A stretch of 64,000 nt of DNA from Salinibacterium sp. SWN248 (lineage in GTDB: Bacteria > Actinomycetota > Actinomycetes > Actinomycetales > Microbacteriaceae). Under the pieces are notes generated by a model. The model did no database searches. It saw only the letters and a list, made by a program, of their open reading frames with translations, and was not told where the DNA came from. Numbering within the stretch: position 1 is the stretch's first letter; each line of letters starts with the position of its first letter. This document shows, in pieces, positions 22,103 to 63,450 of this stretch. Both the position numbers and the translations under genes were made by a program. The DNA is taken from NCBI RefSeq assembly GCF_015864575.1, contig NZ_JADYWW010000001.1:372001-436000 (forward strand). The letters are read 5' to 3'.

Positions 22103-23470
22103 ATGAAGAAGCTTCGCTTCGGTCTATTCGAAAACCCCCAGGCCAACGACTCGGGAACGTCCACGTGGCGTCATCCCGACAACAAGCGCGACATGTTCGA
22201 CCGCCTCGACTACTGGCGTGAGATCACGACCATCTGTGAAGAGGCCGGCTTCGACTTCATGTTCTTGGCGGATGCCTGGGGCTGGGCTGATGTCAACGGT
22301 GAGCGTCCCGAGATCTGCTCGGTCGAGGGCCTCGACCTGCCCCGTCTTGATCCCGCGATTCTGGCTGCTGCCCTCATCTCGACCACCACGAACCTCGGAC
22401 TCGTGCTCACGGGATCCACTCTTCTTGAGCAGCCCTACGCTTTTGCTCGCCGCATTGCGAGCCTCGACCACCTTTCGGGTGGCCGAATCGGATGGAACGT
22501 CGTGACGACGGGAACCGCCGAGACGGCATCGCAGGCGTTTGGTGTTCCGATGGTCGCGCACGACGAGCGCTACGACATGGCCGATGACTTCATGGAGGTC
22601 GTCTACAAACTGTGGGAGGGTGCCTGGGAGCGTGACGCTCTCGAGCGCGACAAGAAGGGTCGCTTCGCCGACCCGGCCAAGGTGCACCGCATTGAGCACG
22701 ACGGGCCGTACTTCAAATCGCACGGCTACGGAAACTCGTCGTACTCACCGCAGGGCACCCCGGTGCTCTTCCAGGCCGGCACCTCACCGCGCGGTCGCGA
22801 ATTCGGTGGCAAGCACGGCGAGGCCGTCTTCCTCGGTGGCGGAGCGGTGGAGAAGGTGGCCGAGCAGGTCGCATCCATCCGCGAAGAAGCCGTCAAGAAC
22901 GGTCGCGCTGCCGACTCGGTCAAGATCATGTCGGCCTTCACGTGCGTGATCGGCGACACCGAAGATGAAGCCAAAGCCAAGCTGCAAGCGGTGCTGGATG
23001 CCGAGAGCCCCGACGTTGCTGTCGCCTCCTACGCGTGGTTCACGGGCCTCGATCTCTCATCCTTCGACCCGGCAACCCCGATGAAGGAGCTCCACACTGA
23101 GCTTTCGCAGACTCAGGTCACCCGCTTCGGCGACCAGACTGTTGGCGATGTTCTCGCTCAGTGGCACGGCAACGGTGTGCGCAGCAAGCCGTTCGTGGGC
23201 ACTGCTGAGCAGATCGCTGACGAGATGATCGCTCTCGCTGAGGGTGCTGACCTCGACGGCTTCTTGCTGACGCCGATGATCCAGCCCAGTTCGACGGTCG
23301 AGTTCATTGAGAAGGTGCTGCCGATTTTGCGCGAGCGGGGAGTTGCTGGCGAAGGCTACGACGCTCCGACGTTGCGCGAGCGTTTGCTCGGCACCGACGA
23401 TTCGATCTTGCGCGACGACCATCCGGGTGCCGCCTACCGGGCGACAGCCGCGGTCGAAGCGACGAGCTAG
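22103..23470 (+). CDS. FMN-dependent monooxygenase, LLM class (NtaA/SnaA/DmoA type)
   Basis: A 455-residue bacterial-luciferase-like enzyme that uses reduced FMN and oxygen. Seen: start MKKLRFGLFENPQAN, FMFLADAWGWADVNG, LGLVLTGSTLLEQPYAFARR, LDHLSGGRIGWNVVTTG and PVLFQAGTSPRGREF, all typical of the NtaA/SnaA/DszA/DmoA branch acting on aminocarboxylates and organosulfur compounds. Length fits that branch. It needs a separate flavin reductase, which is encoded at 24208. Being last in the ABC operon, it probably oxidises the imported compound. Exact substrate unknown. Confidence 0.9.
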   Translation: MKKLRFGLFENPQANDSGTSTWRHPDNKRDMFDRLDYWREITTICEEAGFDFMFLADAWGWADVNGERPEICSVEGLDLPRLDPAILAAALISTTTNLGLVLTGSTLLEQPYAFARRIASLDHLSGGRIGWNVVTTGTAETASQAFGVPMVAHDERYDMADDFMEVVYKLWEGAWERDALERDKKGRFADPAKVHRIEHDGPYFKSHGYGNSSYSPQGTPVLFQAGTSPRGREFGGKHGEAVFLGGGAVEKVAEQVASIREEAVKNGRAADSVKIMSAFTCVIGDTEDEAKAKLQAVLDAESPDVAVASYAWFTGLDLSSFDPATPMKELHTELSQTQVTRFGDQTVGDVLAQWHGNGVRSKPFVGTAEQIADEMIALAEGADLDGFLLTPMIQPSSTVEFIEKVLPILRERGVAGEGYDAPTLRERLLGTDDSILRDDHPGAAYRATAAVEATS

Positions 23471-54344: not shown

Positions 54345-54380
54345 TATTTCGAGAAATATTGTGGAATTGTATAGACAATT
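54345..54380 (+). promoter_or_regulatory. Promoter/operator of the pyrimidine-catabolism-like cluster
   Basis: Two perfect palindromes: TATTTCGAGAAATA (54345-54358) and AATTGTATAGACAATT (54365-54380). The second contains a -10-like TATAGA (54370-54375); TTTCGA 17 bp upstream can serve as -35. The AATTGT-N4-ACAATT form resembles operators of FadR-subfamily GntR regulators; no such regulator is encoded in the window. Confidence 0.55.
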
Positions 54381-54438
54381 TTGCACAACATGGTCTCATC
54401 AGCACAAATGAGCATTGCCACTTACGCTGGAGAGGGAC

Positions 54439-54465
54439 ATGATGAGTAACCACACCGTCACATAG
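54439..54465 (+). other. Eight-codon mini-ORF in the leader of the nitrilase gene
   Basis: ATG ATG then six codons to TAG (peptide MMSNHTVT), preceded at a good distance by GGAGAGGG, a stronger ribosome-binding site than many genes here have. It lies in the leader about 120 bases before the nitrilase start. It could be a regulatory leader peptide or chance. Confidence 0.4.
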
Positions 54466-54503
54466 GCACAACACGATTGAAACGATGAACCTAGAGAATG
54501 GGT

Positions 54504-54524
54504 GAACGGGGATAGTTCCCGTTC
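54504..54524 (+). promoter_or_regulatory. Leader hairpin before the nitrilase gene
   Basis: GAACGGG-N7-CCCGTTC, a perfect 7-bp inverted repeat in the leader between the mini-ORF and the gene. It might be an attenuator stem or a second operator; no U tract follows directly. Confidence 0.4.
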
Positions 54525-54584
54525 GCGTGTCATTTTCCCGGTTCATCGCCGCAGGCAATGACGCCGAATAACGCAGGAGGCACA

Positions 54585-55430
54585 ATGACAACGGTTCGCG
54601 CAGCAATCACTCAGACCACTTGGACAGGCGACAAGGAGTCGATGATTCAGAAGCACGAGCAGTTCGCTCGGGATGCGAAGGCGCAAGGCGCCCAGATCAT
54701 CTGCTTCCAAGAGCTTTTCTACGGTCCCTATTTCGGGATCACTCAGGACAAGAAGTATTACCGCTACGCCGAGCCTGTTGATGGCCCGATCGTTACGCGC
54801 TTCCAAGCCCTGGCTAAAGAGCTCGACATGGTCATGATTCTGCCGATCTACGAAGAAGCGATGACGGGCGTGTATTACAACACCGCCGTCGTTGTTGACG
54901 CCGATGGCACCAACCTTGGTTCGTACCGCAAGCACCACATTCCTCACCTCGACAAGTTCTGGGAGAAGTTCTACTTCACGCCCGGCAACTTGGGTTTCCC
55001 GATGTTCAACACCGCCGTCGGCAAGGTTGGCGTTCACATTTGTTACGACCGCCACTTCCCCGAGGGATGGCGCGAACTCGGGCTCAACGGCGCCGAGATC
55101 GTCTTCAACCCGAATGCCACGAAGCCCGGACTCTCCAACCGCCTCTGGGAGGTTGAAGGTCCAGCAGCAGCAGTGGCCAACGGCTACTTTGTGCTTCAGC
55201 CCAACCGTGTCGGCCTCGAAGACAACGAGTACGGCGACGAAGCTGTCGACTTCTACGGCACCAGCCAGGTCATCGACCCCCGCGGAAACTTCGTGGGCGA
55301 GCGTGGCTCGGGCACCGATGAAGAGATCATGATTCGCGATCTCGACATGGACCTCGTGCAGGAAATGCGCGACGACTGGCAGTTCTACCGTGACCGTCGC
55401 CCCGACGCGTACCTGTCGATCCCTAAGTAA
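54585..55430 (+). CDS. Carbon-nitrogen hydrolase, probable beta-ureidopropionase
   Basis: A 281-residue nitrilase-superfamily amidase with the Glu-Lys-Cys triad: E43 (ICFQELFYG), K116 (YRKHHIPH) and C153 (VHICYDRHFPE). NPNATKPGLSNRLWEVEGPA and LGSYRKHHIPHLDKFWEKFY closely resemble N-carbamoyl-amino-acid hydrolases/beta-ureidopropionases, which release CO2 and ammonia from N-carbamoyl-beta-alanine. Followed after 74 bp by dihydropyrimidinase, fitting steps 2 and 3 of reductive pyrimidine breakdown. AGGAGG precedes ATG 54585; an ATG 9 codons upstream is rejected. Confidence 0.9.
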   Translation: MTTVRAAITQTTWTGDKESMIQKHEQFARDAKAQGAQIICFQELFYGPYFGITQDKKYYRYAEPVDGPIVTRFQALAKELDMVMILPIYEEAMTGVYYNTAVVVDADGTNLGSYRKHHIPHLDKFWEKFYFTPGNLGFPMFNTAVGKVGVHICYDRHFPEGWRELGLNGAEIVFNPNATKPGLSNRLWEVEGPAAAVANGYFVLQPNRVGLEDNEYGDEAVDFYGTSQVIDPRGNFVGERGSGTDEEIMIRDLDMDLVQEMRDDWQFYRDRRPDAYLSIPK

Positions 55431-55504
55431 GCCAAAACTTCAACCCCCAGGTTGTTTTGGCGCCCGGGGGACAGTAGGCACACGACATCGCAGAGGAGCG
55501 AATC

Positions 55505-56968
55505 ATGGCCACCACTCTCATTTCCGGCGGTACCGTCGTCAGCTCAACGGGGCGCGCCCCAGCAGACGTCCTGATCGACGGCGAAGTAATCAAAGCTGTG
55601 TTGTCTCCCGGCAGCACGCTTTTTGGAACCGACATTGCGGCATCCGTCGACAAGGTCATTGATGCCACGGGAAAGTACGTCATTCCCGGTGGCATCGACG
55701 CCCACACGCACATGGAGCTGCCCTTCGGCGGCACCGCGGCAATCGACACGTTCGAGACGGGCACTCGCGCTGCGGCGTGGGGCGGCACGACCTCGATCAT
55801 CGACTTTGCGGTGCAGACCTTTGGAGAGCGCATCCAGGATTCGCTCGCTGCGTGGCACGGCAAAGCGGCGGGCAACTGCGCCATCGACTACGGCTTTCAC
55901 CAGATTGTCGGCGACGTCACTCCCGAGTCGCTCAAGGCGATGGAGAAGCTGCCAGACGAGGGCATCACGAGCTTCAAGATGTTCATGGCTTACCCCGGAG
56001 TTTTCTACTCGGATGACGCACAAATCCTCAAGGCAATGCAGGTGTCTCGCGACACCGGCTTGATGACGATGATGCACGCCGAGAACGGGCCGGTCATCGA
56101 CGTTCTCGCCGAGCAGCTCGTGGAGCAGGGCAAGACCGACCCGTACTATCACGGTGTCGCTCGTGCCTGGGAGATGGAAGAGGAAGCGACGCATCGAGCG
56201 ATCATGCTCGCGAAGCTCACCGGCGCCCCGCTCTACATTGTTCACGTCAGCGCGAAGCAAGCGGTCGAACAGATCGCCACCGCTCGTGACCGTGGCCAGA
56301 ACGTCTTTGCTGAGACGTGCCCGCAGTACCTCTACTTGAGCCTCGAAGAACAACTCGGTGCGCAGAGTGAGCAGTACGGCCACTTCGAGGGTGCCAAGTG
56401 GGTGTGCTCGACTCCGCTTCGTTCACGCGAAGAGGGTCATCAGGATGCCATGTGGCAGTCGCTGCGCACGAACGATGTGCAGATGGTCTCGACCGACCAC
56501 TGCCCGTTCTGCATGAAGGACCAAAAAGAGTTGGGCCTTGCGGACTTCCGCAAGATCCCCAACGGCATGGGAACCGTCGAACACCGCATGGACCTCATGT
56601 ATCAAGGCGTTGTCACCGGCGAGCTCACGCTCGAGCGTTGGGTCGAACTGACGAGCACCACCCCCGCTCGCATGTTCGGTATCTACGGACGCAAGGGTGT
56701 TATCCAGCCAGGAGCCGACGCCGACATCGTGGTCTATGACCCCAACGGTCACACCTCGATCGGTATGCCGGTCGACGAAAACGGCAACCCCACCGGCAAG
56801 AAGCACCACATGAACATGGACCACGCAGCCTGGGAGGGCTTCGAGATCGATGGTCACGTTGACACTGTCATCTCACGAGGCAAGGTCATCGTCGATGACG
56901 ACCAGTACATCGGCACCAAGGGTGACGGCCGCTTCATGAAGCGCGGCCTCACTCAGTACCTGACCTAA
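55505..56968 (+). CDS. hydA: Dihydropyrimidinase / hydantoinase
   Basis: A 487-residue amidohydrolase of the dihydropyrimidinase family with all metal ligands: H67 and H69 (GGIDAHTHMELPFGG), carboxylated Lys K158 (SFKMFMAYPGVF), H191 (MMHAENG), H247 (YIVHVSAKQ) and D331 (STDHCPF). It opens dihydrouracil, dihydrothymine or hydantoins to N-carbamoyl compounds, which the upstream nitrilase would hydrolyse. Cytoplasmic homotetramer in the family. A strong terminator follows, so it forms a two-gene unit with the nitrilase. Confidence 0.94.
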   Translation: MATTLISGGTVVSSTGRAPADVLIDGEVIKAVLSPGSTLFGTDIAASVDKVIDATGKYVIPGGIDAHTHMELPFGGTAAIDTFETGTRAAAWGGTTSIIDFAVQTFGERIQDSLAAWHGKAAGNCAIDYGFHQIVGDVTPESLKAMEKLPDEGITSFKMFMAYPGVFYSDDAQILKAMQVSRDTGLMTMMHAENGPVIDVLAEQLVEQGKTDPYYHGVARAWEMEEEATHRAIMLAKLTGAPLYIVHVSAKQAVEQIATARDRGQNVFAETCPQYLYLSLEEQLGAQSEQYGHFEGAKWVCSTPLRSREEGHQDAMWQSLRTNDVQMVSTDHCPFCMKDQKELGLADFRKIPNGMGTVEHRMDLMYQGVVTGELTLERWVELTSTTPARMFGIYGRKGVIQPGADADIVVYDPNGHTSIGMPVDENGNPTGKKHHMNMDHAAWEGFEIDGHVDTVISRGKVIVDDDQYIGTKGDGRFMKRGLTQYLT

Positions 56969-56979
56969 ACGGTTTCGCT

Positions 56980-57013
56980 GCAGCATCCGCTGGCTACCAC
57001 CAGCGGATGCTGC
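56980..57013 (+). terminator. Terminator after dihydropyrimidinase gene
   Basis: A 14-bp perfect stem (GCAGCATCCGCTGG / CCAGCGGATGCTGC) with a 6-base loop, followed by ACTTTAAAC, 12 bp after the stop. It separates nitrilase-hydA from the LLM-ABC genes downstream, which may have their own promoter or depend on read-through. Confidence 0.85.
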
Positions 57014-57049
57014 ACTTTAAACGACCTTCCACCACGAATGAGGAGCCCC

Positions 57050-58066
57050 ATGGACTTCGGAGCAGTACTTCAGACCAACCCGCCGTCAGCACGAACCGTT
57101 CAACTCGCGAAGCTTGCAGAGGCGCACGGCTTCACCTACGTCTGGACCTTTGACTCGCACATCCTGTGGCAAGAGCCCTATGTGATTTACAGCCAGATCT
57201 TGGCCGAGACCCGCAAGGTGATCGTCGGACCGATGGTGACCAACCCGGCCACGCGCGACTGGACCGTCACGGCGTCTACCTACGCCACGCTCAACGAGAT
57301 GTACGGCAACCGCACCGTCTGTGGCATTGGCCGCGGCGACTCGGCTGTGCGCGTGACCAACGGCAAGCCGACAACGCTGAAGGATCTGCGGGAGTCGATT
57401 CACGTCATCCGCGAACTCGCGAACTCGCGTTCGGTCGAATACGGCGGAGCGCAGTTGCAGTTGCCATGGAGCAAAGGTTCCGAGCTCGAGATGTGGGTTG
57501 CGGCCTATGGCCCCCTCGCGCTCAAGCTCACCGGTGAAGTCGGAGACGGGTTCATCTTGCAGCTCGCTGACCTCGACATTGCCGCCTGGATGATCAAGAA
57601 GGTGCGCGACGCTGCTGAAGCCGCCGGACGCGACCCGATGTCGATCAAGTTCTGTGTTGCAGCGCCGATGTACATCGGAGATGACTGGGAGCACATGCGC
57701 GACCAGTGCCGCTGGTTCGGAGGAATGGTGGGAAACCACGTGGCCGACATCGTGAAGAAGTACGGCTCTGACGGAGACGTACCGAAGGCCCTCACCGACT
57801 ACATCGAGAAGCGTGAAGGCTACGACTACAACCAGCATGGTCAAGCGGGCAACACGCACGCGGCGTTTGTGCCCGACGAGATCGTCGATCGGTTCTGCGT
57901 CATGGGAACCGCCGAGGAGCACATCGCAAAGCTCGAGAAGTTGCGCGAGCTCGGTGTCGATCAGTTCGCCGGCTACCTGCAGCACGACAACAAAGAAGAG
58001 ACCATGCGGGTCTACGGCGAGACGGTAATCCCGGCCCTCACCGAAACAGTGACGGCGAAGGTCTAA
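57050..58066 (+). CDS. LLM-class oxidoreductase, F420-dependent CPS_4043-type family
   Basis: A 338-residue luciferase-like TIM-barrel protein resembling methylene-tetrahydromethanopterin reductase: MDFGAVLQTNPPSARTVQLA, FTYVWTFDSHILWQEPYVIY, VGPMVTNPATRDWTVTAS, CGIGRGDSAVRVTNGKP and MWVAAYGPLALKLTGEVGDG. From memory this is the family annotated as F420-dependent CPS_4043-type, function unassigned. F420 or FMN use cannot be decided by eye. GAGGAG precedes the ATG. It sits between dihydropyrimidinase and the importer genes, where a dihydropyrimidine-forming enzyme would be expected. Confidence 0.85.
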   Translation: MDFGAVLQTNPPSARTVQLAKLAEAHGFTYVWTFDSHILWQEPYVIYSQILAETRKVIVGPMVTNPATRDWTVTASTYATLNEMYGNRTVCGIGRGDSAVRVTNGKPTTLKDLRESIHVIRELANSRSVEYGGAQLQLPWSKGSELEMWVAAYGPLALKLTGEVGDGFILQLADLDIAAWMIKKVRDAAEAAGRDPMSIKFCVAAPMYIGDDWEHMRDQCRWFGGMVGNHVADIVKKYGSDGDVPKALTDYIEKREGYDYNQHGQAGNTHAAFVPDEIVDRFCVMGTAEEHIAKLEKLRELGVDQFAGYLQHDNKEETMRVYGETVIPALTETVTAKV

Positions 58067-58070
58067 CCCG

Positions 58071-59024
58071 ATGACGGCAACCCGAAACGATCAGCGTGGG
58101 GAGGTTGCCGTCCGCCCTGCGAGTTCGCCGGGTGCGGTGGCTAAACCCGCGCGCACTCGGCTGCTCGGCGGCTTCCTCTGGGGCATCGCTGGCGTCGCGC
58201 TCATCGCACTCATCTGGGAGGGCTACAAGTTCTTCGGTCCAGACAACGGCGTGCTCATCGGCGAACTTCGCGTGCTTCCGCGCACGACCGACCTCGCTAT
58301 GCCGCACCTGTGGGACATGATGACGCGGCTCGCGGAGCCCGTCACGCGAGCAGATGGTGCGCTTCCGCTCTGGGCAGTCGTGGCGCTTGCCTCGCTCATG
58401 ACGCTCGGAATCGCTGCTGCTGGCTGGGCTGTCGGAGTGATTGTGGGAGTCGTCTTCGCGCTCCTCATGCAACGCTGGCGCCTCGCCGAATTCGGCCTCC
58501 TGCCGTGGATCGTCATCAGCCAAACCGTGCCGCTCATCGCCTTTGCGCCGATCGTCAAGAGCTGGGGCTCGCGCGTCGAGATCGGCTCGTTCGAGTGGCA
58601 AGACTGGATGTCGGTCGCGCTCATTGCGAGCTATCTGGCGTTCTTCCCGATCACCGTTGGTGCGCTCAAGGGACTGCAATCTCCCGACCGCATCCACGTT
58701 GAGCTCTTCGACACGTATGCCGCTGGCTACTGGCCGACGCTCGTGCGACTGCGCTTGCCCGCAGCCGTTCCGTACCTTCTGCCTGCGCTGCGACTCGGAG
58801 CAGCGAACGCTGTCATCGGCGCGGTTGTCGCGGAAGTATCGACCGGACTTCAAGGCGGCATCGGACGCCTACTCATTCAATTTGCCGGTCAAGCATCGGG
58901 CGACCCCTCGAAGGCGTGGGGCCCCATCTTCGGCGCAATCGTGCTCGGCCTTGTGACGGCCGGTTCCGTTGCACTGCTCGGCATCATTCTCAAGGACTAC
59001 CGACGAACCGAGGAGGCCGCATGA
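58071..59024 (+). CDS. ABC transporter permease (pyrimidine/THI5-type importer), first
   Basis: A 317-residue permease, longer than the second one because of a cytoplasmic N terminus of about 40 residues and an extra-cytoplasmic segment after the first helix (LWGIAGVALIALIWEGYKFF). EAA loop near LFDTYAAGYWPTLVRLRLPA. Begins 4 bp after the LLM gene. Its TGA overlaps the ATPase ATG by 4 bp. Confidence 0.88.
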   Translation: MTATRNDQRGEVAVRPASSPGAVAKPARTRLLGGFLWGIAGVALIALIWEGYKFFGPDNGVLIGELRVLPRTTDLAMPHLWDMMTRLAEPVTRADGALPLWAVVALASLMTLGIAAAGWAVGVIVGVVFALLMQRWRLAEFGLLPWIVISQTVPLIAFAPIVKSWGSRVEIGSFEWQDWMSVALIASYLAFFPITVGALKGLQSPDRIHVELFDTYAAGYWPTLVRLRLPAAVPYLLPALRLGAANAVIGAVVAEVSTGLQGGIGRLLIQFAGQASGDPSKAWGPIFGAIVLGLVTAGSVALLGIILKDYRRTEEAA

Positions 59025-59911
59025 GCGACCAGATCCCGACCACCACTCCCGCTGCCGACACGATGACGACCGATGTTTCGGATGCTGCTGTTGCCGTTCG
59101 CGGTCTCAACAAACAGTTCCAGACTGCCTCGGGCATCGTTCACGCGCTTGAAGGAATCGACCTCACCGTTGAGGCCGGCGAATTTGTCTCCCTCATCGGT
59201 CCTTCGGGCTGTGGCAAGTCAACGCTCATGAGACTCATTGCCGACCTCGATGTTCCGACTTCGGGGGAGCTGACGGTGTTCGGCAAGACGGCGACGCAGG
59301 CTCGACTCGACCAGGACTACGGCATCGCATTCCAGCAGGCCGGGCTTTTGCCGTGGCGCACGGTGGCCGCGAACGTTGCGCTTCCGCTGGAACTGCACGG
59401 GGTGGCATCCGCTGCTCGGCGCACTCGCGTTGCTGACCTGCTCGAGATGGTCGGCCTCACCGAGTTCGCTGATCGTTTTCCTGACCAGCTCTCGGGCGGC
59501 ATGCAGCAGCGCGTTGCGATTGCCCGCTCGCTGGCGGAACAGCCGCGACTGTTGCTGATGGATGAACCGTTCGGCGCCCTCGACGAGATGACCCGCGAGA
59601 AGATGCAGACAGACCTCGTGCGCATTGCCGCCGACACCGGAGCTGCTGTCGTATTCGTGACGCACTCGATTCCTGAAGCCGTGTTCCTCTCCGACCGCGT
59701 TGTGGTCATGTCGCCGCGGCCCGGTCGCATCAGCGACATCATCCCGATGCGATTGGATGCTGCTGACGGTCGCGAAGAACGTGACGACGACCTGCGCGAA
59801 GCATCCTCGTTCTTCGAGATGGTGACCGAAGTGCGTGAAGCACTGCACGGCGGAGCCTCGGATGCGGAAAACCCCGCACCGCGCGCCGCCAGGGGAGTGG
59901 ACACCCGATGA
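59021..59911 (+). CDS. ABC transporter ATP-binding protein (pyrimidine/THI5-type importer)
   Basis: A 296-residue ATPase: Walker [11 protein letters not shown]-loop GIAFQQAGLLPWRTVAA, signature [15 protein letters not shown], Walker B LLLMDEPFGALDE and H-loop VTHSIPEAV. Extended N terminus of about 25 Thr/Ala-rich residues and a C-terminal tail. The start overlaps the upstream permease stop by 4 bp; the frame extended to 58916 is not used. Confidence 0.9.
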   Translation: MSDQIPTTTPAADTMTTDVSDAAVAVRGLNKQFQTASGIVHALEGIDLTVEAGEFVSLIGPSGCGKSTLMRLIADLDVPTSGELTVFGKTATQARLDQDYGIAFQQAGLLPWRTVAANVALPLELHGVASAARRTRVADLLEMVGLTEFADRFPDQLSGGMQQRVAIARSLAEQPRLLLMDEPFGALDEMTREKMQTDLVRIAADTGAAVVFVTHSIPEAVFLSDRVVVMSPRPGRISDIIPMRLDAADGREERDDDLREASSFFEMVTEVREALHGGASDAENPAPRAARGVDTR

Positions 59912-60753
59912 CGACAAACACGACCGCGAACGCGATCATCGGTGCCGGAACCGGTGCCACGCGCACCAAGGGCTGGAGCCCGCGAACGGAGTCGATCCTT
60001 CGCGTGGTTGCCCCCGTCACGCTCGGTATCATCGTGCTCGCCATCTGGCAGTTTCTCGTCACCGTTGGTGGCGTCTCCGACTACCTGCTGCCGAGCCCGA
60101 CTTCGATCATGGCGGAACTGGTCGCGTACTGGCCAGCCGTCGTCTCGGCAACGGTGCTCACCGGAACGAACAGCCTGCTGGGTCTGCTCGTTGGTTCGCT
60201 GCTCGGAATCATTCTCGCTGCGGTCGCCGCACGGTGGCGCATCGCAGACCAGATGAGTGCACCGATCATTGCCGCGCTCGCGGTTGTTCCGATCGTTGCT
60301 CTCGCCCCGGTGCTCAACTCCATGTTTGGAGCTGACAGCCAGTTCGGTCGCCAAGCAATTGCTGCTATCGCGTCGTTCGTTCCCATCTTCATCAACACCC
60401 TGCGCGGGTTTCGCCAAACGCGGCCAGTGCACCGTGACCTAATGAAGGCCTACGCAGCAAGCTCCGGGCAGATGTTGCGCTCGCTCACCCTGCCGACAGC
60501 GCGCCCCTTTATCCTCACTGGCATCCGCATCGCTTCGTCGCTCGCCGTTATCTCCGCCCTCGTGGCGGAATACTTCGGTGGACCACGCGGCGGCCTCGGC
60601 AGTCTGATTGCGACCTCGGCAGCCTCAAGCGCGTATTCCCGCGCGTGGGCCTACGTCGGGGCATCCATCGCTCTCGGTCTGCTCTTCTACCTCGCGACGC
60701 TCGCACTCGAACGACTAGTGCTGCGCCGTGTACCGACCGGGGGCTCCCGATGA
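59908..60753 (+). CDS. ABC transporter permease (pyrimidine/THI5-type importer), second
   Basis: A 281-residue permease with six predicted helices (ILRVVAPVTLGIIVLAIWQF first), EAA loop around MKAYAASSGQMLRSLTLPTA and a highly conserved GPRGGLGSLIATSAA. Start overlaps the ATPase stop by 4 bp. With the 58071 gene it should form a heterodimer, unlike the single-permease importer at 21159. Confidence 0.9.
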   Translation: MTTNTTANAIIGAGTGATRTKGWSPRTESILRVVAPVTLGIIVLAIWQFLVTVGGVSDYLLPSPTSIMAELVAYWPAVVSATVLTGTNSLLGLLVGSLLGIILAAVAARWRIADQMSAPIIAALAVVPIVALAPVLNSMFGADSQFGRQAIAAIASFVPIFINTLRGFRQTRPVHRDLMKAYAASSGQMLRSLTLPTARPFILTGIRIASSLAVISALVAEYFGGPRGGLGSLIATSAASSAYSRAWAYVGASIALGLLFYLATLALERLVLRRVPTGGSR

Positions 60754-60843
60754 CAGCACCCCGCGCAGAAAAGGGAAGGAGATAACCGCTCCACCAGCTC
60801 TACCAGCAGTATCCACTTGCACCGTGAATCTGGAAGGTCTGAC

Positions 60844-61986
60844 ATGAAGTTCACCAAACGCCGCGCACTCGCGGCTGGAGCGTTCGCCGTAACGGCAGCG
60901 GTCCTCCTCGCAGCATGCTCCACCGCCGAAGAGCCCACCAGCGAATCTGGCGAAGCCCTCACCGAAGTGAAGCTCCAACTCCAGTGGCTCCCTCAGGGAC
61001 AGTTCGCTGGCTACTTCGCCGCAGCCGATCAGGGCTACTTTGAAGACGAAGGCCTCAGCGTCGAAATCATCCCGTCGGGTGGCGACATCGTTCCGCAAGA
61101 CGCTCTCGCCAACGGCGACGTTGACTACGCCGTAGCCTGGGTTCCCAAGGTTCTTGGCTCCATCGAGCAGGGCGCCAACCTCACCGACATTGCTCAGATT
61201 TTCCAGAAGTCGGGCACCCTTCAGGTGTCGTGGGCTGACTCGGGCATTGACTCCGTCGCTGACTTCGAGGGCAAGAAGATTGGCTCGTGGGGCTTCGGAA
61301 ACGAGTGGGAGATCTTCGCAGCAATGGCTGCTGAAGGACTCGACTCCTCGACTGTGCAGATCATCACGCAGGACTTCAACATGAACGCGTTCCTGCAGGG
61401 CGACATCGACGCCGCACAGGCCATGACGTACAACGAGTACGCTCAGCTGCTTGAGTCGACCGACCCTGACACCGGAGAGCTGTACCAGCCTGAAGACTTC
61501 AACGTCATCAGCTACGAAGACACCGTTGGCGCCATGCTCCAGGATGCAATCTGGGCTGACACCGAGCGTCTCGACAGCGACGAGGACTACCAGGAGACCA
61601 CGGTCAAGTTCCTCAAGGCTGTAGTCAAGGGCTGGATCTACTCCGCTGAGAACCCTGAATCTGCTGCCGAAGGCACCGTTGCTGCTGGTTCCGGTTGGGG
61701 CCCCAGCCACGAACTGTGGATGGTCAACGAGACTAACAAGCTGATCTGGCCGGCCGACAACGGCATCGGCGTTATCGATGAAGCCGCGTGGGACCGCACC
61801 GTTGAAGGCGCCATCAGCGCCGTCAACGAGACGGGTGCAAGCCCCATCACCACGGCACCGCCGGCAACGGCATGGTCGAACGACTGGATCATGAAGGCAC
61901 TTGAAGAGCTCGAAGCCGAGGGCGTAGACACCACCGGTTCCAGCTTCAGCCCGATCGACGTCACCCTCCTTGAGGGCGGCAACTAG
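60844..61986 (+). CDS. THI5/NMT1-like ABC substrate-binding lipoprotein
   Basis: A 380-residue lipoprotein, lipobox VLLAAC (Cys 25). The mature start VKLQLQWLPQGQFAGYFAAA and DQGYFEDEGLSVEIIPSGGD are the signature of THI5-like proteins that bind pyrimidines such as HMP and related rings; WAVSWADSGI-type residues and GKKIGSWGFGNEWEIFA follow. Given its neighbours, a pyrimidine or hydantoin ligand is inferred. GGAAGG precedes ATG 60844. A strong terminator follows. Confidence 0.9.
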   Translation: MKFTKRRALAAGAFAVTAAVLLAACSTAEEPTSESGEALTEVKLQLQWLPQGQFAGYFAAADQGYFEDEGLSVEIIPSGGDIVPQDALANGDVDYAVAWVPKVLGSIEQGANLTDIAQIFQKSGTLQVSWADSGIDSVADFEGKKIGSWGFGNEWEIFAAMAAEGLDSSTVQIITQDFNMNAFLQGDIDAAQAMTYNEYAQLLESTDPDTGELYQPEDFNVISYEDTVGAMLQDAIWADTERLDSDEDYQETTVKFLKAVVKGWIYSAENPESAAEGTVAAGSGWGPSHELWMVNETNKLIWPADNGIGVIDEAAWDRTVEGAISAVNETGASPITTAPPATAWSNDWIMKALEELEAEGVDTTGSSFSPIDVTLLEGGN

Positions 61987-62010
61987 TCACACTGAATACC
62001 CGCTAGTCGG

Positions 62011-62040
62011 ATGCCGCCCTTACGCTTGTGAGGGCGGCAT
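62011..62040 (+). terminator. Terminator after THI5-like binding-protein gene
   Basis: A 10-bp perfect stem (ATGCCGCCCT / AGGGCGGCAT) with a 10-base loop followed by TCGTT, 24 bp after the stop. It probably ends the LLM-ABC operon or reduces read-through into the aminotransferase. Confidence 0.85.
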
Positions 62041-62124
62041 TCGTTGCATTCACGGCGCCACACCAGCGCCCCGCACCACCTTCTCACCATCTCATTGCCA
62101 CCCCGGATCGAAAGGCCTCGTGCC

Positions 62125-63450
62125 ATGACCGAGCAGAACACCCCCGACCTCGATGCCTACGCACTCGAGCTCGATCAGGCGCACATCTTTCATTCGTGGT
62201 CGGCGCAGACTCCCGCCCATGCTGCGGCCGTGAGTATCAAGAGTGGGCTCGGCACTCGCGTGTGGGATCACGCCGGAAACGAATATCTCGACTTTTCTAG
62301 CCAGCACGTCAATGTGAATTTGGGGCACCAGCATCCGGCCCTGCTTGAAGCTATTCGGGTGCAGTCTCAGTTGCTCGCAACAATCTCACCGCCCACCGCC
62401 AACATCACACGGGGCGAGGCGGCGAAGCGATTGGCTGCCATTGCGCCCGAGGGGTTCAACCGCGTGTTCTTTACGAATGGCGGCTCTGACGCCAACGAGA
62501 TTGCAATGCGGATGGCGCGGCTCTACACCGGGCGCGACAAGATTCTCTCGGCGTACCGCTCGTATCACGGCAACACCGGCAGCAGCATTGTGGCCACGGG
62601 CGACCCGCGTCGCATCCCCAACGAGTTCGCTCGCGGCCACGTGCACTTCTTCGGCCCTTACCTGTATCGCTCCGAGTTCTGGGCGACGACGCCCGAGCAA
62701 GAAAGCAAACGTGCGCTGCAGCACTTGCGGCGCGTCATCGAAGCGGAAGGGGCGGAGTCGATCGCGGCCGTGCTGCTCGAGCCGATTCCCGGCACTCCGG
62801 GCATTTTGGTGCCGCCGCCCGGCTACCTCGCTGGCGTGCGCGAACTGTGTGATCAGCACGGCATCCTGCTGATCTTCGACGAAGTGATGTGTGGCTTTGG
62901 GCGCACCGGCGAGTGGTTCGCCTTCGACGCCTTCGATGCGCGGCCCGACCTCATCACCTTCGCCAAGGGAGTGAACTCGGGCTACGTTCCCATCGGCGGT
63001 GTGATCATCGACGACCCGATTGCGGCGCACTTCAACGACCGGGTGTTCCCCGGCGGGCTGACGTACTCGGGGCATCCGCTGGCTGCCGCCACCGTCGTAG
63101 CCTCACTCGACACGATCGCCTCCGAAGGTGTTCTTGAGCACGTGCGCGATATCTCGGAGAACCACCTCGGGCCGGCGCTTGAGGCTCTGGCCGAACGGCA
63201 TCCGTCGATCGGTGAAGTGCGCGGTCGCGGAGTGTTCTGGGCTCTCGAGCTCGTGACCGATCGGGCGACCCGTGAACCCGTGCCGGCCGCAACGATGGGG
63301 CGCATTCGGGCTGGCCTCGTGGAACGCGGTCTGCTGCCCTTTGTGGCGGAGAACCGCATCCATGTGTTGCCGCCGTGTGTCGTCACGCCTGCCGAAATCG
63401 CTGAGGCGATGGAGATCTACGATGCGGTGCTGACGCTCGAATTGGGGTAA
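62125..63450 (+). CDS. Class III (omega) aminotransferase
   Basis: A 441-residue PLP enzyme of the aspartate-aminotransferase-superfamily class III group. Seen: FFTNGGSDANEIAMRMARLY, YRSYHGNTGSS, FDEVMCGFGRTGEWFAFD with D252 for the PLP pyridine nitrogen, and FAKGVNSGYVPIGGV with Schiff-base K281. Family members include beta-alanine:pyruvate and taurine:pyruvate transaminases. Downstream of the pyrimidine genes it would convert beta-alanine to malonate semialdehyde. GAAAGG precedes the ATG 62125; earlier in-frame starts lie in the terminator. Confidence 0.88.
   Translation: MTEQNTPDLDAYALELDQAHIFHSWSAQTPAHAAAVSIKSGLGTRVWDHAGNEYLDFSSQHVNVNLGHQHPALLEAIRVQSQLLATISPPTANITRGEAAKRLAAIAPEGFNRVFFTNGGSDANEIAMRMARLYTGRDKILSAYRSYHGNTGSSIVATGDPRRIPNEFARGHVHFFGPYLYRSEFWATTPEQESKRALQHLRRVIEAEGAESIAAVLLEPIPGTPGILVPPPGYLAGVRELCDQHGILLIFDEVMCGFGRTGEWFAFDAFDARPDLITFAKGVNSGYVPIGGVIIDDPIAAHFNDRVFPGGLTYSGHPLAAATVVASLDTIASEGVLEHVRDISENHLGPALEALAERHPSIGEVRGRGVFWALELVTDRATREPVPAATMGRIRAGLVERGLLPFVAENRIHVLPPCVVTPAEIAEAMEIYDAVLTLELG

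Follow-up and report, generated by a model that had tools for sequence, protein, structure and literature searches.

Reductive pyrimidine degradation (Pyd) is a pathway in which a dihydropyrimidine dehydrogenase (PreAT or PydA), an FMN/iron-sulfur enzyme, acts ahead of dihydropyrimidinase and beta-ureidopropionase; the pathway as drawn in PMC7332683, of which part was consulted, also includes a transaminase. Here, we analysed a cluster of eight genes in a stretch of 64,000 nucleotides from Salinibacterium sp. SWN248 (C1:372001-436000, hereafter the window). The cluster shares with the Pyd pathway the dihydropyrimidinase, a probable ureidopropionase, a related importer and the transaminase, and differs from it in that the dehydrogenase is absent and a luciferase-like (LLM) protein of the family TIGR03842 stands in its place, together with F420 genes. 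We strongly favour a reading of the cluster as a Pyd pathway in which the LLM protein serves as an F420H2-dependent uracil/thymine reductase at the first step.

A first step with a changed electron donor, as proposed here, is described in the part of PMC7332683 consulted, namely the ferredoxin-dependent PydAc of Clostridium chromiireducens. PydAc still belongs to the dihydroorotate-dehydrogenase family, whereas TIGR03842 is an unrelated LLM barrel. The nearest published ideas are an LLM protein in the uric acid degradation of Chloroflexota and a uracil-ring reductase of mureidomycin biosynthesis. The available sections of PMC12507026 assign a putative F420-dependent reductase of the luciferase family to the step of reductive uric acid degradation that other phyla carry out with YgfK or UacX; this is likewise a PF00296 protein at a reductive step and likewise a proposal, but its substrate is yanthine, its phylum is another one and TIGR03842 is not named in those sections. 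SSGG-03002/NpsU of mureidomycin/napsamycin biosynthesis is a putative F420/FMN oxidoreductase that was shown genetically to reduce the C5=C6 bond of the uracil ring. In contrast to the present case it is biosynthetic and acts on a nucleoside antibiotic, and the authors obtained no product with it in vitro (PMC10714638, in the part consulted). The original prediction for this cluster spoke of an undescribed first step; in agreement, no account of pyrimidine degradation beginning with an F420-dependent reaction was found among the papers listed from an open-access library that excludes preprints and most subscription papers, as judged by titles, opening lines of abstracts or passages. RutA shares the LLM fold and the uracil substrate, although it is FMN and oxygen dependent, is followed by other downstream enzymes and stands lower in the fold list.

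In the proposed route, the THI5-like ABC importer would take up uracil or thymine, and the LLM protein, working in the reductive direction, would use F420H2 as hydride donor to reduce the C5=C6 double bond, giving dihydrouracil or dihydrothymine. The ring would then be opened by the dihydropyrimidinase, the nitrilase-type beta-ureidopropionase would release NH3 and CO2 along with beta-alanine, and malonate semialdehyde would be formed by the aminotransferase. An F420-dependent glucose-6-phosphate dehydrogenase (FGD) encoded elsewhere in the genome would regenerate F420H2, while F420-0 would enter via a putative F420-0 ABC importer and receive its glutamate tail from CofE.

The LLM protein in the place of the dehydrogenase

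The LLM protein matched the NCBIfam family TIGR03842 (F420_CPS_4043 family, function unknown) with 602.8 bits against a cut-off of 295.45. When its predicted model was ranked by fold, the F420 enzymes MER and Adf were closest and RutA was found further down, so that the barrel is most like those of the F420-dependent luciferase-like hydride transferases. MER is the closest in both fold and sequence, but an identity as MER was rejected on scores of 135.1 against a cut-off of 348.7 (TIGR03555) and 137.7 against 276 (PRK02271), and on the residue at the Glu6 position. This residue of M. jannaschii MER, which is the one altered in structure entry 8qq8, aligns to Val10 of the LLM protein; 101 of the 116 rows hold Val, nine Thr and three Cys, the remainder being gaps or other residues. 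The start at 57050, as originally predicted, was preferred over the mechanical call at 57038 on two grounds: in the longer form the TIGR03842 alignment begins only at residue 6, and the sequence GAGGAG immediately precedes 57050. Fourteen PF00296 genes were counted in the genome, with only one strong member of TIGR03842 (best other match listed, 52 bits). A second LLM-family gene lies in the window at 22103-23470.

The original prediction noted that the dehydrogenase is missing from the cluster and named its presence elsewhere in the genome as the evidence that would speak against the proposal. The absence extends to the whole genome (3.05 Mb, 99.92% complete), in which no PreA, PreT or PydA was found. 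The sole PF01180 match is a gene read as the class-2 dihydroorotate dehydrogenase pyrD, the sole PF14691 match was taken as gltD since it immediately follows a gene read as gltB, and the PreA model NF006183 gave no match at E <= 1e-70. At the same threshold, PreA was detected in only two of 396 Actinomycetota genomes, neither of them among the 79 with TIGR03842.

An exchange of the two enzymes was observed in Rhodobacterales plasmids. TIGR03842-annotated genes were present in eleven plasmid records, ten from Leisingera and one from Paracoccus. Of the ten Leisingera records, nine have a block of 14.7 kb in full; the best place in the last one covers 62% and reaches the record end, and a second place was reported. 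In the two records that were read gene by gene, one side of the block comprises hydA, a Zn-hydrolase, an aminotransferase, pntB and pntA, and the other side cofG, cofH, cofD, cofC, cofE, npdG, the LLM gene and a TetR gene, with NCS1 just outside. Qingshengfaniella and Roseinatronobacter carry preT (annotated in these two records only as an NAD(P)-dependent oxidoreductase), preA, TetR, Zn-hydrolase, hydA and an ABC importer. The Rhodobacterales Pyd clusters thus share close HydA and Zn-hydrolase proteins and a RutR-like regulator with the LLM-bearing ones: between Leisingera and Qingshengfaniella, HydA and the Zn-hydrolase are 73% identical and TetR 47%. The Leisingera cofGHDCE-npdG-LLM genes stand in the place of preT-preA of the related Rhodobacterales. 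No TIGR03842-annotated record was found among the PreA records listed (60 of 62), in a search that covered plasmids only.

The Leisingera TetR protein beside the LLM protein matched the C-terminal domain of RutR (PF08362, 146.6 bits) and keeps all of W77, Y97, W167, Q171 and Q179, which contact uracil in RutR, one via water, according to a figure legend of PMC10891134. Three preTA clusters encode TetR proteins that likewise keep all five, whereas two other aligned TetR proteins do not keep them. The transhydrogenase and NpdG suggest a path from NADH through NADPH to F420H2 in Leisingera.

Association with F420 genes and the source of the cofactor

The occurrence of TIGR03842 was compared with that of CofD, an F420 biosynthesis protein, in two samples. 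Among 60 Microbacteriaceae genera, own included, TIGR03842 (counted above its cut-off) was found in 27 and CofD in 28; both were present in 23, TIGR03842 only in four and neither in 28 (Fisher p 6e-8, uncorrected for shared descent). In the 396 Actinomycetota genomes, TIGR03842 (E <= 1e-60) was found in 79 and CofD (E <= 1e-30) in 212. CofD accompanied TIGR03842 in 72 of these 79 genomes and was present in 140 of the 317 others (p 2e-15, likewise uncorrected). The seven TIGR03842 genomes lacking CofD are our own and six assemblies that are 81-96% complete.

Gene neighbourhoods were examined in three sets, namely 80 named loci, which are the best 80 of 590 hits and so biased to close relatives, all 26 further genomes with TIGR03842 in the family sample, and 38 phylum genomes picked by eye from the 79 for family diversity. 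The stretches differ in length, and one of the 80 named loci (L081) is labelled as an Acidobacteria MAG (metagenome-assembled genome). A dihydropyrimidinase lies in the stretch with the LLM gene in 80/80, 26/26 and 32/38 regions, respectively, and the grouping is therefore more than chance. As a control, six stretches of our genome not chosen for TIGR03842 gave no match above 50 bits to the nitrilase, dihydropyrimidinase, Zn-hydrolase, aminotransferase or NCS1; they did give ATPase matches, the F420-0 importer, and a PreT match of 27-30% at the gene taken as gltD. The tightest set comprises the LLM protein, dihydropyrimidinase and ureidopropionase (32 of the 38 phylum regions), while an aminotransferase match was seen in 25, some only ~30% identical. 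A clear PreA or PreT match was found in none of the 144 TIGR03842 regions. Some clusters (L212-L215) lack the nitrilase and have a Zn-type hydrolase and an NCS1 transporter.

Counting clear matches only, an F420 gene (CofD, CofE, FbiC, FGD or the F420-0 importer) lies in the stretch in 56 of the 80 named loci, 23 of the 26 family regions and one of the 38 phylum regions, several of the stretches that have none being short contigs. The cluster of Microbacteriaceae often adjoins cofD or the putative F420-0 importer. Physical linkage to F420 genes is a feature of the window's family, and other families show co-occurrence at the genome level only. A Streptomyces record (L091) encodes a 62% identical LLM protein next to nitrilase and dihydropyrimidinase genes. 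Arthrobacter wenxiniae (L087) has NCS1, nitrilase, dihydropyrimidinase, LLM, Zn-hydrolase, FGD, CofD, CofE and FbiC within ~12 kb.

The set of F420 biosynthesis genes in the genome appears incomplete. CofE is present (TIGR01916, 226.3; cut-off 180.65), while CofD and FbiC/CofH were not found. FGD scored 649 bits (cut-off 420). At C1:1249232-1252177 (L248:5233-8178), 5 kb from CofE, lies a putative F420-0 ABC importer (TIGR03868/03869/03873), of which two of the three subunits score above their cut-offs, namely the binding protein (473.6; cut-off 392.4) and the permease (482.6; cut-off 437.35). This importer family was reportedly proposed by Selengut and Haft in 2010. Because cofD and fbiC are lacking, yet cofE, FGD and the putative importer are present, the organism probably salvages F420-0, and extension of the imported F420-0 by CofE would be the simplest reading. 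In the three remaining TIGR03842 genomes of the family sample that lack CofD (G002, G022 and G041), the importer adjoins the nitrilase, dihydropyrimidinase and LLM genes; the short contig of G022 includes only its binding protein. FbiC was found in only 18 of the 71 genomes searched, and several genomes with CofD and without FbiC have the F420-0 importer beside cofD. For the incomplete F420 biosynthesis of the window's genome, L098:11305-12132 is listed alongside the importer stretch. Uptake of deazaflavin by the THI5-like importer was rejected, as this importer is also present in FbiC-bearing genomes and a separate putative F420-0 importer was found.

Alternative functions of the LLM protein

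It is very likely that the cluster degrades pyrimidines with the LLM protein at step one, and, given that position, we are highly confident that F420H2 is the donor. The original prediction allowed for either reduced F420 or FMN in the formation of the dihydropyrimidine. The F420 version gains support from the family and fold, the co-occurrence and linkage with F420 genes, the preTA exchange in Rhodobacterales, and the RutR-like regulator beside the LLM protein, while the FMN version is weakened. Use of FMN or another reductant for the same step, at least where F420 cannot be made, would suit a genome that lacks CofD and FbiC; it is quite improbable, considering that F420 enzymes come closest to the LLM protein in sequence and fold, that CofE, FGD and the putative importer are kept, and that TIGR03842 co-occurs with CofD. 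A change of substrate appears improbable as well. The LLM protein might reduce or oxidise another imported N-heterocycle, such as a substituted hydantoin, with a hydantoinase and a carbamoylase downstream; D-hydantoinases are indeed included in the dihydropyrimidinase family, and NCS1 and THI5-like transporters are not specific for uracil. Nevertheless, the nitrilase is much nearer to beta-ureidopropionase (3.2e-50) than to the N-carbamyl-D-amino-acid amidohydrolase structure (8.9e-25), the aminotransferase is nearest to a transaminase of taurine, a beta-type amine, and in Leisingera both the HydA and Zn-hydrolase likeness to the preTA-linked proteins and the retained uracil-contacting residues of the regulator point to pyrimidines.

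The presence of Adf, an F420 alcohol dehydrogenase, among the nearest folds could place the LLM protein further downstream, for instance as a dehydrogenase that uses F420 to act on an alcohol or semialdehyde on the beta-alanine side, with another enzyme making the dihydropyrimidine. This is very improbable, as the protein is grouped most tightly with dihydropyrimidinase and ureidopropionase and less often with the aminotransferase, and its Leisingera counterpart stands with the genes that replace preTA. An oxygen-dependent, RutA-type monooxygenase that opens uracil oxidatively is scarcely credible, and was rejected on the families matched, the position in the fold ranking and the logic of the pathway. 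MER and Adf rank well ahead of RutA, the 22 NCBIfam families listed for the LLM protein (E <= 0.001) include no RutA model, no RutB-F-like family was seen among the eight cluster genes, and E. coli RutA reached at most 29% identity in tblastn against stretches with the genome's 14 LLM genes. Oxidative opening would also leave the dihydropyrimidinase without a substrate.

Several observations weigh against an F420H2-dependent uracil/thymine reductase. CofD occurs without TIGR03842 in five of the 28 CofD-bearing genera of the family, and CofD and FbiC/CofH are missing from the organism itself. Its F420 supply would depend on an importer family that is only putative, a computational proposal, and whose ATPase here scored 336.4, under the cut-off of 372.4, though TIGR03873 is its best family. 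The dihydropyrimidinase is absent from six of the 38 phylum regions, two of them contig-limited stretches of less than 12 kb, and three of the 38 have no pathway gene sought. Linkage to F420 genes among these regions is confined to a single one, itself of Microbacteriaceae, and was not seen outside the family. A RutR-like regulator was not found at E <= 1e-6 in 146 regions (144 TIGR03842 and two PreA; best 9e-6, L068). An LLM protein, 30% identical to the Leisingera one, also lies near the PreTA cluster L246, and a Paracoccus plasmid with the same F420 operon, LLM gene and ABC importer has no annotated hydantoinase within 14 kb. Finally, an amidohydrolase and a CN-hydrolase also accompany a Variovorax F420 cassette whose LLM protein does not reach the TIGR03842 cut-off, and ring-opening neighbours are therefore not unique to TIGR03842.

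On balance, we lean towards a wider picture in which TIGR03842 is a second, unrelated solution to the first step, an F420H2 uracil/thymine reductase that forms the main Actinomycetota route, is the reason some Rhodobacterales make F420, and runs on scavenged F420-0 in lineages like this one. If true, this would assign a role to an orphan family that is widespread (79 of the 396 sampled Actinomycetota genomes) and provide a second enzyme family for uracil reduction. It would further answer, for one group, why Proteobacteria make F420, a question left open in the part consulted of a 2021 review (PMC8498797). The cofactor swap may help to explain why the carriers, including this organism, its relatives and some proteobacteria, keep F420. 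The putative F420-0 importer would also become testable, as an organism lacking cofD and fbiC should need it for growth on uracil; the oxidation of F420H2 is readily monitored by absorbance and fluorescence.

Genes of the cluster and related cassettes

The eight genes lie on the + strand at 54585-63450, in one direction as predicted, separated by short gaps or overlapping (Table 1). In order, they encode the nitrilase, dihydropyrimidinase, LLM protein, a permease, an ATPase, a second permease, the THI5-like binding protein and the class III aminotransferase.

Table 1. Genes of the cluster, with positions counted from the first letter of the window.
Feature	Role	Position	Strand	Evidence
Nitrilase-superfamily amidase	Probable beta-ureidopropionase (N-carbamoyl-beta-alanine amidohydrolase), step 3	54585..55430	+	PF00795 211.6 bits, E-K-C triad
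Dihydropyrimidinase	Step 2	55505..56968	+	TIGR02033 540.9 bits, cut-off 393.25
TIGR03842 luciferase-like (LLM) protein	Proposed F420H2-dependent uracil/thymine reductase, step 1	57050..58066	+	
ABC importer permease 1		58071..59024	+	PF00528; 31% to homologue in preTA-linked importer of Qingshengfaniella
ABC importer ATPase		59021..59911	+	PF00005; 51% to preTA-linked importer ATPase
ABC importer permease 2		59908..60753	+	PF00528; 38% to preTA-linked permease
NMT1/THI5-like lipoprotein	Importer's substrate-binding protein	60844..61986	+	PF09084 133 bits; 35% to preTA-linked binding protein
Class III aminotransferase	Proposed beta-alanine transaminase, step 4	62125..63450	+	PRK06062 687.5 bits, cut-off 472

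The triad predicted for the nitrilase (E43-K116-C153, numbered from the ATG at 54585) is present. The nearest solved structures are N-carbamoylputrescine amidohydrolase (3.9e-55), followed by CG3027/beta-ureidopropionase chains (3.2e-50 to 4.6e-48); no curated cut-off was reached, TIGR03381 giving 244.3 bits against 410.25. The dihydropyrimidinase is above its family cut-off, has D-hydantoinases/dihydropyrimidinase as best solved structures, and has H67, H69, K158, H191, H247 and D331 in place, all six positions of which we take to be candidate metal ligands, in keeping with the prediction. For the THI5-like importer, the two permeases and binding protein were recovered as described, and the ATPase was an addition to that description. 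A formylaminopyrimidine-binding protein was second best (4.2e-13) among the four solved relatives listed for the binding protein. The assignment of the class III aminotransferase agreed with a score above the cut-off; its nearest solved structure is taurine:2-oxoglutarate aminotransferase (2.7e-101).

The LLM protein is 97-99% identical in Salinibacterium strains, the closest named relatives. Genes read as dnaK, grpE and dnaJ lie upstream of the cluster, together with hspR and a DUF2071 gene; homologues of HspR and DUF2071 were found beside the cluster only in L011-L015 among the 80 named loci. In L219, L220 and L244, the fetched stretch has a TIGR03842 gene and no pathway gene sought, and in L235 the LLM match comes in two pieces, with the family match starting from position 64, so the gene may be interrupted. 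L246 is one of the two PreA-bearing Actinomycetota genomes; its LLM gene lies near homologues of preT, preA, dihydropyrimidinase and Zn-hydrolase, and the genome gave no TIGR03842 match at E <= 1e-60.

Other proteobacterial F420 cassettes were also observed. Five cassettes without an annotated TIGR03842 gene were inspected (5/28 other CofD records), and none has an annotated dihydropyrimidinase, as far as an incomplete plasmid gene table allows; one carries a gene annotated as pyrC. Plasmid cassettes with differing LLM proteins and neighbours are L250, L251, L252, L253 and L254, and that of S. meliloti pSymA comprises a TIGR03619 LLM protein, an amidohydrolase annotated as pyrC, CoA-transferases and a transhydrogenase. 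Each such cassette may represent a separate F420-dependent pathway. The Variovorax plasmid, from linuron-contaminated soil (L094:7414-17973), carries the amidohydrolase (26% identical to HydA), CN-hydrolase, LLM (202.7 bits), npdG, RidA and cofGHDCE. A Caballeronia plasmid (L095:10001-13994) retains only a C-terminal LLM match (residues 206-334, 50%), which adjoins a Zn-hydrolase, alanine dehydrogenase and transhydrogenase subunit beta, and is apparently a decayed copy of a cluster.

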